Part shown: positions 511-39,065 of the stretch, in pieces
Layout of the letters: every line of letters begins with the position of its first letter
Position numbering within the stretch: the stretch's first letter is position 1
From: Myxococcales bacterium
Lineage (GTDB): Bacteria > Myxococcota > UBA727 > VGSZ01
Direction: 5' to 3'
DNA: 39,065 nt
NCBI GenBank assembly: GCA_023248635.1
Contig: JAHFED010000056.1
Location: 1 to 39,065, forward strand
The notes under the pieces: model-generated
Databases searched by the model: none
Told to the model about the DNA's origin: nothing
Seen by the model: the letters and a program-made list of their open reading frames with translations, nothing else
Position numbers and translations under genes: made by a program

Positions 511-666
511 GTCACCGACAGCGCTTCGCGTGTCCGTGAATTCACCGACAGCGCTTCGCGTGTCGGTGAATTGTCTACAGGTTCATCGCCTAGCGGCGAT
601 GAATTCACCGACAGCGCTTCGCGTGTCGGTGAATTGTCTACAGGTTCATCGCCTGGCGGCGGTGAA
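511..666. repeat. Palindromic repeat array 1 (modules A-A-B-A-B)
   Basis: The array consists of five abutting modules: A (511-540, slightly degenerate), A (541-570), B (571-603), A (604-633) and B (634-666). Module A is 30 bp with a perfect 10-bp stem, TTCACCGACA pairing with TGTCGGTGAA around a GCG/CGC inner stem. Module B is 33 bp, starts TTGTCTACAGG and carries the hairpin TTCATCGCC/GGCGATGAA. The array fills the gap between the small lipoprotein ending at 719 and the TTG start at 493. It therefore lies in the leader of the latter if the two genes are co-transcribed. Confidence 0.9.
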
Positions 667-2866: not shown

Positions 2867-3781
2867 TCACCAGGTCGCGTCGGCCAGCTGGTCGACGACG
2901 AGGTTGCCAAAAGAAGGGCCGGTGTCGTCGAAGGCATGGGGTGCCCAGAAGCCGCGGGGATCCTGCTGCAGTGTCAGAAAACGAACGTCGGCGCCGTCTC
3001 TGCTGCGATGTCCGGTGTGCACCGCCGTCAGGCTGCGCTCATTGCGCAAGGTGAAGAGCAAATCGAGCTCCCGCGCGCCCGCCCCTTGGCCGCCCGGCCC
3101 CAGAGCCGAGCGCGTGTTCAGGCGGTAGCTGAGGGCTTCGGTGGACCAGTCGTCGAAGTCACCGACGTGGTGCCAGCCCGTGCCGCGGCCATCGATGCCG
3201 GCTTCACGCAGCTGGTAGAGGGCAAAGGCGCTGCCGCCGGTGGCGTATCTTTTCAGGTCCATCCACAAGCGGTTGTCGATGCGATCAGGAGAGGGTGATC
3301 GGCGAAATGTGGGCGGTTGTTCTTCGACGAAAAGATCTGGGGCGACGCTGGCGGACTGCTCGAAGGGCACGAAGGAGTAGCGTGACGCCGCGACGCCGGG
3401 ATTCTGGGTGTCATCGTCGACGACGAGCACGCGCTTGGCCCCCGCGCCTTCGATGCGGTAGGGCAGGCGCGCGCTGAGGCCGGTCTTTCGGTAGCGCAGT
3501 ACGATGGTGTTGCCGTTGCTGCTCCAATTATAGCTGTTTGTCGTGTTGAAGCCGATCTTTCCAAAGCGAAAGAGACCGACGCTTCCCTCATGGAAATAAT
3601 AGAAGGCAACCGGCGCGTCTTCGCGCTTGCCGGCTTCGGGCCACCGCGTCCACAGCCCTTGGAGCTCCTCGTCACCAGCAGCGCCCCCGCTGCCGCGGAA
3701 CACGGCGACGGCGACGGGCCCCCAGAGGGCAGCGGCACCCAGGACGACGGCGACGGCGAGGAAAGCACGGAAGGAGCGCAT
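2867..3781 (-). CDS. Exported or membrane-anchored hypothetical protein (304 aa)
   Basis: The N-terminus (MRSFRAFLAVAVVLGAAALW) is a signal peptide or signal anchor. The mature part starts with ELQGLWTRW, followed by alternating beta-type segments (FYYFHEGSVGLFRF, NTIVLRYRKTG). This resembles the opening strand of small lipocalin-like beta-barrels, but I do not recognise the family. No catalytic motif is visible. The codons around FNTTNSYNWSSNG are less G/C-biased than in the rest of the gene. It is separated by 89 bases from the monooxygenase-like gene and reads the same way. Confidence 0.65.
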   Translation of the reverse strand: MRSFRAFLAVAVVLGAAALWGPVAVAVFRGSGGAAGDEELQGLWTRWPEAGKREDAPVAFYYFHEGSVGLFRFGKIGFNTTNSYNWSSNGNTIVLRYRKTGLSARLPYRIEGAGAKRVLVVDDDTQNPGVAASRYSFVPFEQSASVAPDLFVEEQPPTFRRSPSPDRIDNRLWMDLKRYATGGSAFALYQLREAGIDGRGTGWHHVGDFDDWSTEALSYRLNTRSALGPGGQGAGARELDLLFTLRNERSLTAVHTGHRSRDGADVRFLTLQQDPRGFWAPHAFDDTGPSFGNLVVDQLADATW

Positions 3782-3967
3782 GGACCCATGGTGCCATTGC
3801 TGCCCTCGCGCCGCAGCTTTGTGCGATCGGCCGCGTCAGCGAGGAGCGACCCGAAGGGAGCAGTGGATCGGTCGCTTTGCCTGGGTCGCGTGGCGGCAGC
3901 GGTGGCACCCCGGTCGATCAAGCCGGCGCCGTATCAACCGAGGTGATCGCCGCTGTATGTTGCGCTG

Positions 3968-4129
3968 GTGAACGTGCTCTTCACCGACGACGAGAACACC
4001 CGCTTCTTGCTGGAGCTCTCCGGGGGCACCGAACCCTTCCCCTCCGGAGCTGCCTGCCCGGCAGGCCTCGACCCCAAGACCGTCTGCCTGCTCGCCAAGG
4101 GGAGGGGCGTGCGTGCCAGACGCTCCTGA
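3968..4129 (+). CDS. Small hypothetical ORF or gene remnant (53 aa)
   Basis: The frame reads VNVLFTDDENTRFLLELSGG and on to LAKGRG, with about nine in ten codons ending in G or C, the signature of real coding DNA here. An in-frame stop at 3944-3946 sets the upper limit. GTG at 3968 or CTG at 3953 could start it, and neither has a convincing Shine-Dalgarno. The 3' end overlaps the GTG start of the next gene by 17 bases and carries that gene's ribosome site. It could be a true short gene or the tail of a broken one. No family is recognised. Confidence 0.35.
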   Translation: MNVLFTDDENTRFLLELSGGTEPFPSGAACPAGLDPKTVCLLAKGRGVRARRS

Positions 4130-4754
4130 CGGCGAGGAATTCACCGACAGCGCTTCGCGTGTCGGTGAATTGTCTACAGGTTCATCGCCTGGGGGCGATG
4201 AATTGTCTACAGGTTCATCGCCTGGGGGCGATGAATTCTCTACAGGTTCATTGCCTGGCGGCGATGAATTCTCTACAGGTTCATCGCCTGGCGGCGATGA
4301 AATGCCGCTGGCAACGGCGACCCTGAAACAGTTGCTTTCGGAACGAACGACGGCGGCGACGACGACGGCGCCCTTTCGCCTGGGTCCCGCGGTGCTGCGG
4401 GCGCCTCCCGCCGCGGTGCGCCGACCCGAGGCCGTGACGGTACGAGTCGATGACGACCCGGCGACGGCGGACTTGTTGGGCGAGCTGCTCGACATGGTGT
4501 TGGTGGGCGCCGACGACGCCGACAGCGGCCTGCCCGAGGTGCACTTGCAGTTCAAGGCCAGCGTCTTTGGGGGCTTGCACCTGCAGCTGGTGAAGCGCAG
4601 CGCGGGGCTGGAGGCGACCTTCATCGTGGCCGATGCCGCGGCCCGGCGCGCCGTCGCTGAGCACGTGGATGCCCTGGTGGCCCGCCTGCGGGAGCGGGGC
4701 TTCTCGGTGCTGTCCCACGATCTGCGTGTGCAAAGCGCCGAAGCAGCGCCCTGA
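4113..4754 (+). CDS. FliK/HpaP-like C-terminal domain protein with in-frame palindromic repeat N-terminus
   Basis: This 213-aa protein has a C-terminal ~75 residues (from PEVHLQFKASVFGG to SVLSHDLRV) resembling the flagellar hook-length/type III secretion FliK-HpaP domain: two strands, then a helix ending LRERGFSVL. The preferred start is GTG 4113, with GGGGAGGGG five bases upstream. From residue 10 to 63 the chain is encoded entirely by palindromic modules A-B-B-B-B and reads FTDSASRVGE followed by four copies of (L/F)STGSSPGGDE-type 11-mers. The alternative start is ATG 4302, directly after the last module, but it has no good ribosome site. The gene sits nine bases before mutM, whose Shine-Dalgarno overlaps this stop. 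No other secretion gene is in the window. The domain call is moderate. Confidence 0.55.
   Translation: MPDAPDGEEFTDSASRVGELSTGSSPGGDELSTGSSPGGDEFSTGSLPGGDEFSTGSSPGGDEMPLATATLKQLLSERTTAATTTAPFRLGPAVLRAPPAAVRRPEAVTVRVDDDPATADLLGELLDMVLVGADDADSGLPEVHLQFKASVFGGLHLQLVKRSAGLEATFIVADAAARRAVAEHVDALVARLRERGFSVLSHDLRVQSAEAAP
4140..4301 (+). repeat. Palindromic repeat array 2 (modules A-B-B-B-B), inside a coding frame
   Basis: The modules are A (4140-4169) and four B modules (4170-4202, 4203-4235, 4236-4268, 4269-4301). The 162 bases are exactly 54 codons in the frame of the GTG 4113 gene. B1 and B2 are identical. B3 and B4 start TTCTCT in place of TTGTCT, and B3 has one change in the hairpin arm. The array ends one base before an ATG. 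Confidence 0.92.
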
Positions 4755-5599: not shown

Positions 5600-5639
5600 T
5601 CGCACGTGCTCGCGCTCGATCACCAAGGGACGCGGGCTG

Positions 5640-5853
5640 ATTCCCGATCTCGCTGAACTTCGACCGCGGAGCGGTCTCGTTCAGCTCCGTCGGGGATGCT
5701 CTTCTGGCAGGTCTGATGCAGACCTCGCCCCGCGCCGGCGGAGCCGGACGCGGGGCCCCCCACCAACTCCGCGTTCCGCGGGCGCGCTTCACGCGCGTCA
5801 TCCCGCGTCTTTCCCAGCTCGAAACGCGGTCGAACATCAAGGGGATGCGGGAT
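5640..5853 (+). repeat. Multi-hairpin dispersed element, copy 1
   Basis: This ~214-bp element occurs again at 30135-30348 in the same orientation with only scattered differences. It folds on paper into consecutive hairpins: a nested stem GCTGAAC...GTTCAGC enclosing GACCGC-GGA-GCGGTC; AGGTCT...AGACCT; CCCCGCG...CGCGGGG; GCGCG-CTTCA-CGCGC; and a closing ATCCCGC...GCGGGAT. It starts 41 bases after the mutM stop and ends 49 bases before the 3' end of the convergent kinase gene. It fills most of the 302-bp gap. It could be a MITE-like repeat, a structured RNA or a terminator. Confidence 0.85.
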
Positions 5854-9223: not shown

Positions 9224-10500
9224 ATGCCCGAGAATTCTGTGCCCTCAGGCCGGGCGGCCAAGTGGCCGCGCGGGCTGAGGGCAAAGAGCTTCGTCGTCGT
9301 CGCCCTGGCCGGCGCCCTGGGCTGCGGGCCCTCGTTGACGTCGACGCGGGAGGCGTTGCCCTTTGCTGCCGCCGGCGTCGACGCCGCCCCCGATCCTGCC
9401 CTCGAGGGGCCCTATCCAGTGGGCGTGCAGACCATCACTCTCGTCGATGATCGGCGCACCGAGACCAATGCCGCCGGCGTCGAAGGGCCGCGCACCTTCG
9501 CCATCGAGGTGTGGTACCCGGCTCGAGAGAGCGCCCGCGACGACGACAAAGAGGTGATCGAGCTCTTCGACGAGCTGCCGGCGGACCTGCAAGAAGACTT
9601 TCGTCCCGAAGACCTCGGCAGCCTGCCGACCCTGGCTGTGCGCAACGCACCCGCCCGCCAAGACGCCGACGCCGGCGCCGACGTCGATGTCTTTCCCCTG
9701 GTGATTTTCTCCCATGGCAAGGGCGGGCTGCGCCTGCAGTCCACCTTCTACACGGCGTTTCTGGCCAGCCACGGCTACGTCGTCGCCGCCCCCGACCACA
9801 CCGGCGACACCATCGTCGAGCTGCTGCGCGAAGTGAAAGACAGCGGAAACATCCAGGCCGATTCCACCGTCCAGGCCATCGTCGATCGTCCCCTCGACGT
9901 CATCGCCATGCTCGATCTCCTCGAGGATCTGCTCCCCGAAGACGTCGCCGCCGTCACCGATCTCTCGCGGGTGGGCATGACCGGCCACTCCTTTGGCGCG
10001 CTCACGAGCTTCCTGGTGGCCACCGCCGACAGCCGCATCGACGTCGTCGTCGGCCAGACCCCGACCTCACAGGACGTCATCGCCCTGCAGCAACGCACGC
10101 CACTCCAGGAGGTCTCGATCCCCATGGTCATTCAGTCGGCCCATCTCGATCAGACCCTGCCCGAAGACACCAACGCCCGACCGCTCTACGACACGTTGAC
10201 GTCGTCGAAGGCCTGGCTGTCGTTGAGCCGCGCCGGTCATTTCACCTACTCGGATCTGTGCGTGCTCGATGTCGACGCCATCAGCGCTGCTGTCGACCTG
10301 GACGTCAGCAACGTCCTCGACGACGGCTGCGGGCCCGATGCCATTCCCGCTCCGCTCGCGCAGCCCGCGATTCGTTCGTCGGCCATCGGCGCCTTCAACC
10401 TGCACCTGCGCGGGTCCGAGGGCAGCGGGCTTTTCTTGACCCAGGCCGCCCTCGACAAGATCGCGCCCGGCGAAGGCCTGCTGCAGAGCGCGGAGGCGCA

Positions 10501-10504
<4 letters not shown>
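9224..10504 (+). CDS. PAF-acetylhydrolase-like alpha/beta-hydrolase lipoprotein
   Basis: This 426-aa lipoprotein has lipobox LAGALGC (Cys34). The body is an alpha/beta-hydrolase like plasma-type platelet-activating-factor acetylhydrolases. It has an oxyanion segment IFSHGKGG, nucleophile elbow GMTGHSFGA (Ser256), acid in SAHLDQTLPED (Asp309) and His339 in RAGHFTYSD. The substrate is unknown; a lipid or short-acyl ester is likely for the family. ATG 9224 is my choice because it gives a basic n-region before the hydrophobic core. GTG 9239 is also possible. The start region contains a 44-bp near-perfect palindrome. It is first in a five-gene chain, ending in ATGA shared with gatB. Confidence 0.82.
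9240..9283. repeat. 44-bp near-perfect inverted repeat at a gene start
   Basis: Arms 9240-9260 and 9263-9283 pair at 19 of 21 positions around a 2-base centre. The outer nine pairs are TGCCCTCAG/CTGAGGGCA. The palindrome is inside the n-region codons of the esterase lipoprotein signal peptide, translated SGRAAKWPRGLRAK. If transcribed it would form a long hairpin beside the start codon and could limit translation. Confidence 0.8.
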
Positions 10505-38946: not shown

Positions 38947-39065
38947 TTCATCGCCGCCAGGCGATGAACCTGTAGACAATTCACCGACACGCGAAGCGCT
39001 GTCGGTGAATTCATCGCCGCCAGGCGATGAACCTGTAGACAATTCACCGACACGCGAAGCGCTGT
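38947..39065. repeat. Palindromic repeat array 3 (reverse orientation, runs off window)
   Basis: Modules of the same family are read on the minus strand: B (38947-38979), A (38980-39009), B (39010-39042) and a partial A (39043-39065, cut by the window edge). B and A alternate exactly. It begins 19 bases after the miaE stop, so it probably lies in that transcript's 3' region. Confidence 0.92.

Follow-up and report, generated by a model that had tools for sequence, protein, structure and literature searches.

The window analysed here, a stretch of 39,065 nucleotides (positions 1-39065), is the whole of contig C101 of a draft genome of 6.53 Mb in 135 contigs. It contains a gene for a FliK/HpaP-like protein with an array of palindromic modules at its 5' end, and two further arrays of the same family. 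The features considered are:

511-666, plus strand: second array of the A/B family, A-A-B-A-B, intergenic
3967-4129, plus strand: short ORF with a tail similar to the C-terminal end of a sigma-54 regulator, which in relatives is encoded ahead of the gene
4097-4107, plus strand: purine-rich ribosome-binding site AAGGGGAGGGG for GTG 4113 (anti-SD duplex -11.7 kcal/mol)
4113-4139, plus strand: GTG and eight codons, MPDAPDGEE, of which the last ~3 residues (GEE) alone align with the N-termini of orthologues
4126-4129, plus strand: CTGA where the orthologues have their ATGA start/stop overlap, shifted by one base relative to the frame of the gene body
4140-4169, plus strand: module A, a 30-bp palindrome reading FTDSASRVGE, with a hairpin of ~ -20 kcal/mol including its AATT flanks
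4170-4202, 4203-4235, 4236-4268 and 4269-4301, plus strand: four B modules
4170-4301, plus strand: B sequence, linker TTsTCTACAGG and palindrome TTCATCGCCTGGsGGCGATGAA, reading LSTGSSPGGDE
4302-4754, plus strand: body of the FliK/HpaP-like gene, with ATG 4302 as the rival start codon
38947-39042, minus strand: third array of the A/B family, B-A-B and a linker, at the contig end

The array at 4140-4301 (162 bp) is composed of one 30-bp hairpin module A, whose arms are perfect over 12 bp (4138-4149/4160-4171), and four 33-bp B modules. Each B module combines an 11-bp linker with a 22-bp palindrome, at a spacing of 33 bp. The reading frame is free of stops from 4113 to 4754: it starts at GTG 4113, crosses the array and continues into a body of 150 residues, whose C-terminal domain is FliK/HpaP-like. 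In Pfam the gene body matched Flg_hook (E=1.9e-6; 28.1 bits, just below the cut-off of 29.8) and HpaP (E=0.004), and the predicted structure of the protein is poor except for the C-terminal domain. The initial annotation of this DNA had given the position of the array, its A-B-B-B-B order and its frame relative to GTG 4113, all of which were borne out. Three of the six frames of the array are stop-free by construction and the open array frame is therefore weak evidence for translation.

The modules belong to a family that is abundant in this genome. The A pattern occurs 173 times and the B pattern 246 times in the draft genome, while reversed-pattern controls gave no match across the same 6.53 Mb, so that the family cannot be ascribed to chance. 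A sample of 946 kb, taken mostly around known copies and searched for modules by a sliding count, holds 103 arrays with 316 modules. These follow a strict grammar, A-11-B-0-A-11-B, with counts on the two strands of 64 and 33 for A-11-B, 33 and 13 for B-0-A and 17 and 8 for B-11-B. The basic unit is therefore A-linker-B, 63 bp long (30 bp in hairpin A, 11 in the linker and 22 in hairpin B), with GAA|TTC at the junction. The two-module make-up described previously is thus correct in that modules A and B are present, but they are parts of a 63-bp composite unit that recurs at 511-666 and 38947-39042. The accompanying remark that module length is neutral to the frame applies to all three lengths, 30, 33 and 63 bp. 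To the left of A the flank ends in GAA (80/93/95%), and to the right of B it starts with TT (73/89%); the right flank of the window array is ATG, not TT. Among 195 genomes sampled from the phylum, this one yielded 174 A-linker-B junctions, a genome of the same genus yielded one and the remaining 193 yielded none. The same-genus copy has diverged, with stem bases that differ and are still complementary. Plasmid, phage and viral sources gave no match.

Although 89% of the sampled DNA is coding, most arrays are intergenic. With arrays masked, a home-made gene caller and stretches chosen mostly for holding arrays, 72 of 99 classified arrays lie between genes, ten inside genes, five at 5' ends and six at 3' ends, and six overlap genes partly. 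Intergenic arrays lie between convergent (15), divergent (22) and tandem (46) genes, near the shares of these classes in intergenic space. One array is found at the right end of the window contig, and arrays also lie at or close to the ends of several other contigs, which is why we think that the repeats probably broke the assembly.

Other repeat families reside alongside A/B, namely C (27 bp, EFSALRPGGQ), F2, F3 and F4. Both F2 (AACTTCAAGACGCGCCAGCGTCTTGAACATC; 33/34-bp period) and F3 (CGGCGCAAAGTGCTTCCTGCTTTGCGCCG; 35-bp period) are tandem palindrome families, present at L084, L103 and other loci, and F4 is a hairpin mosaic of ~180 bp with ~25 copies in the sample. None of 18 F3 cases was located in genes or at the edges of called genes; for C, 12 of 37 were in genes. 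In the window, two C modules (9224-9300) form the start of gene 9224-10504, whose N-terminus, MPENSVPSGRAAKWPRGLRAKSFVVVALAGALGCG, has the look of a lipoprotein-type signal and is repeat-derived in its first part. Another C module (3086-3112) lies in frame within gene 2867-3781 on the minus strand, and an F4 copy (5638-5851) has a mutM-like gene on one side and a kinase gene on the other.

Arrays of the A/B family lie in frame in genes for AroA, TsaB, a LipB/LplA-type ligase (which reads the other strand of the unit), three Ser/Thr kinases, a PilZ/AMIN protein, a MerR-type regulator and an N-formylglutamate amidohydrolase, where all hosts besides AroA and TsaB were assigned by Pfam only. In alignments with four related genomes, the orthologues of AroA and TsaB do not have the insert. 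No second aroA or tsaB was detected in the draft genome, the single weak AroA-like match (E=8.6e-4) probably being the related MurA, and aroA adjoins an aroC-like gene. Since these are the only detected copies and their orthologues are without the insert, the arrays within aroA and tsaB must be translated, judging from the sequence, unless the genes are dead. In the AlphaFold model of AroA the array residues have a pLDDT of ~33-43 and form a low-confidence loop, while the rest of the fold is mostly confident; other in-gene arrays are placed in linkers of the kinase and PilZ/AMIN proteins. A lipoamide dehydrogenase gene (L096) was dropped from the in-gene cases, as its real start is probably located after the array. 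At L079:4945-5163, a seven-module A-B array lies within an ORF rich in Gly, Ala and Ser, in a frame that stays open over a long stretch of the plus strand; the gene caller favoured a minus-strand gene there.

In-frame copies, for which the initial annotation had suggested a genome-wide count, were counted in the sampled stretches, again with the home-made gene caller. Under relaxed flank thresholds, 10 of 13 arrays with coding sequence of the same strand on both sides keep the frame and are open (binomial against 1/3, P=0.0016); the remaining three are single B copies or an array close to the end of a gene. Of 12 in-gene A/B arrays, a class partly defined by openness of the frame, ten share one reading, FTDSASRVGELSTGSSPGGDE. 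Among 151 GAATTC sites in genes, 122 are in phase 0, and in that phase a single orientation of the unit is stop-free. The site together with the stop-free orientation can therefore account for the choice of frame, and selection on the peptide is not needed.

For the FliK/HpaP-like gene itself, two start codons compete. Three orthologues (L032, L033 and L034) begin at an ATGA that overlaps the stop of the upstream gene, which in L032 encodes a sigma-54 regulator, and their starts correspond to positions 5-9 codons upstream of the array insertion point. In the window, only the short ORF at 3967-4129 is left at this place; its tail is a weak match to this regulator (43% over 23 aa, E=0.39) and its position agrees. 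With the array omitted, the window flanks GGCGAGGAA|ATGCCGCTGGCAACGGCGACCCTG match the orthologue GGCGACCGCTACCCGCGGGCGACCGCGACGCTC without gaps up to the old start region, and the array has therefore been inserted cleanly and in frame within the ancestral N-terminus. Orthologues that all started at ATG 4302 had been named earlier as the case against upstream coding; the starts of the three orthologues instead lie upstream of that position. The ancestral ATGA now reads CTGA and is frame-shifted. Therefore, GTG 4113 is not the ancestral start and a new start was required. The ribosome-binding site in front of GTG 4113 is indeed as strong as first described, as its anti-SD duplex exceeds 99.7% of those at 584 called starts. 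The SD of ATG 4302 reaches -4.8 kcal/mol, compared to a median of -4.3 for called genes, and the predicted unpaired values are 0.28 at ATG 4302 versus 0.17 at GTG 4113.

On this evidence, translation of the array from GTG 4113 and a leader before ATG 4302 are both possible, with chances that seem about even. In the latter case the array would be an untranslated hairpin leader, the start would have moved to ATG 4302 upon loss of the ancestral start and the open frame would be incidental, to which we assign slightly less than an even chance. The degraded ancestral ATGA points to such a shift, as does the ordinary SD of ATG 4302, which stands directly before a Pro codon (4305-4307) that is invariant across orthologues. 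Arrays are also open in this frame by construction, most arrays of the genome are intergenic, and N-termini bearing REPs are often non-coding and frequently annotation artefacts (PMC3733652). The SD of GTG 4113, among the strongest in the sample, argues for the upstream start, but the likelihood ratio is small because few true starts are that strong. Likewise, the SD area of ATG 4302 falls within the last B hairpin, in its 3' arm, though its predicted accessibility is no worse than that of GTG 4113. In-frame translation of the modules, as proposed initially, thus stands at the level of the genome (aroA, tsaB and other genes) but is unsettled at this locus, where the ancestral start is lost.

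We consider it likely, as the best joint explanation, that the array represents one copy of an interspersed palindromic element that is short, probably non-autonomous and tolerated in genes. The element most likely would have spread as selfish DNA into AT-rich sites of the GAA|TT type; the AATT on both sides of the unit fits a 4-bp AATT duplication and a plain GAA|TT insertion equally. After insertion, the array would most likely have grown by tandem duplication, here to four B modules. Copies in genes would be tolerated as flexible insertions in the stop-free orientation, with the unit, A and linker plus B all having lengths that are multiples of three. In most genes the frame of GAATTC gives Glu-Phe, in which one orientation reads stop-free. 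Copies that landed otherwise were presumably purged, leaving most survivors intergenic. At the window gene, the array interrupts the ancestral N-terminus 5-9 codons past the start used by the orthologues. It is unlikely, in our view, that the element is a mobile one adapted to life in genes, which a frame-neutral modular length, a stop-free orientation and a Glu-Phe (GAATTC) target would allow to enter coding sequence and expand there time and again with the frame preserved, including at this N-terminus, and which machinery other than RAYT would move.

If the arrays were functional RNA or DNA elements, such as terminators, mRNA-stability sites or REP/BIME-like sites, instead of selfish passengers, then their strong hairpins (-20 and -15 kcal/mol) and their intergenic bias would be accounted for. 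Enrichment between convergent genes is absent from the counts given above, however, changes in the stems mostly break pairs with almost no compensation, and copies exist inside genes, so we regard this explanation as improbable. Regulatory RNA was rejected as a candidate, with no match in Rfam and no stem compensation. More improbable still, to the point of being hardly credible, is that the encoded peptide is a selected, PARCEL-like protein module. The 21-residue reading does recur in about ten proteins of several kinds, but the hosts are mostly unrelated, the frame choice follows the phase of GAATTC and the insert is predicted to be disordered in AroA. Synonymous versus nonsynonymous substitutions amount to 8/22 in genes and 53/158 between genes, the in-gene ratio equalling the intergenic one and lying near random expectation, and the substitutions in the modules reveal no peptide-level selection. 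An apparent shortage of stops in intergenic copies disappeared when the substitution spectrum was considered (1.7 expected, 1 observed).

The best-known palindromic insertions that are translated are those of Rickettsia and Wolbachia, which have reduced intracellular genomes; in other bacteria, there are scattered cases among REPs. The genome studied here is large, belongs to another lineage (of Deltaproteobacteria type, probably Myxococcota) and carries several such palindrome families together. Their differing periods (63, 27, 33/34 and 35 bp) provide a built-in test of whether a frame-neutral length decides entry into genes, on which the absence of the 35-bp-period family from genes bears. 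With single-copy aroA and tsaB, in versions that carry or lack the insert, the cost and the tolerance of such insertions can be measured directly.

Several known systems resemble the A/B family in part. Protein-coding palindromes are established in Rickettsia (RPE) and Wolbachia (WPE), where interspersed palindromes of several families per genome lie in frame in unrelated genes and in solvent-exposed regions (PMC3767692, PMC10969869, PMC4224334). The A/B family shares with RPE the many dispersed copies, in-frame inserts that are absent from orthologues and a flexible or exposed location. It differs in sequence, in its GC-rich host genome of ~6.5 Mb outside the Rickettsiales and in its expandable tandem two-hairpin unit of 63 bp, compared to elements of ~100-150 bp. 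Intragenic REPs occur in several bacteria, and GTAG REPs are stem-loops of 20-40 bp in dimers and clusters that are mostly intergenic and sometimes in genes, where clusters encode up to 43-82 aa (PMC3733652). Between its two hairpins, the A/B unit has a linker that gives GTAG when read on the minus strand; its CTAC is 2-3 nt from the stems and is conserved at 81-100%, which is not above its neighbours. Unlike GTAG REPs linked to RAYT, the family shows no bias towards convergent genes and no RAYT/Y1 transposase (PF01797) was matched in the ~97% complete genome. A RAYT-driven REP, prompted by the GTAG of the linker, was therefore rejected; weak Y1 matches in two relatives have no modules nearby. 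PARCELs, too, are translated tandem DNA repeats with dyad symmetry (PMC2996958), but the motif that they encode is amphipathic, has 25 residues and is often found in membrane-targeted ORFs, whereas A/B encodes a hydrophilic peptide of 21 residues in unrelated enzymes and has most copies between genes. The window protein and ten host proteins had no Pfam match to the PARCEL-type domain (DUF285). MITEs are likewise short, encode no transposase and have imperfect terminal inverted repeats (here TTCAYCGMC), but each end of the A/B unit is itself a complete hairpin and no parent transposon was found. A literature search for in-frame palindromic insertions in myxobacteria yielded nothing. On the features tested, the A/B family thus belongs neither to RPE proper nor to RAYT-linked REPs or PARCELs. 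The parallel with Rickettsia drawn in the initial annotation, with a different sequence, holds in the sense that the family works like RPE and is separate from it (PMC3767692, PMC10969869). The A/B sequence is new, and in the way it works the family also resembles intragenic REPs.
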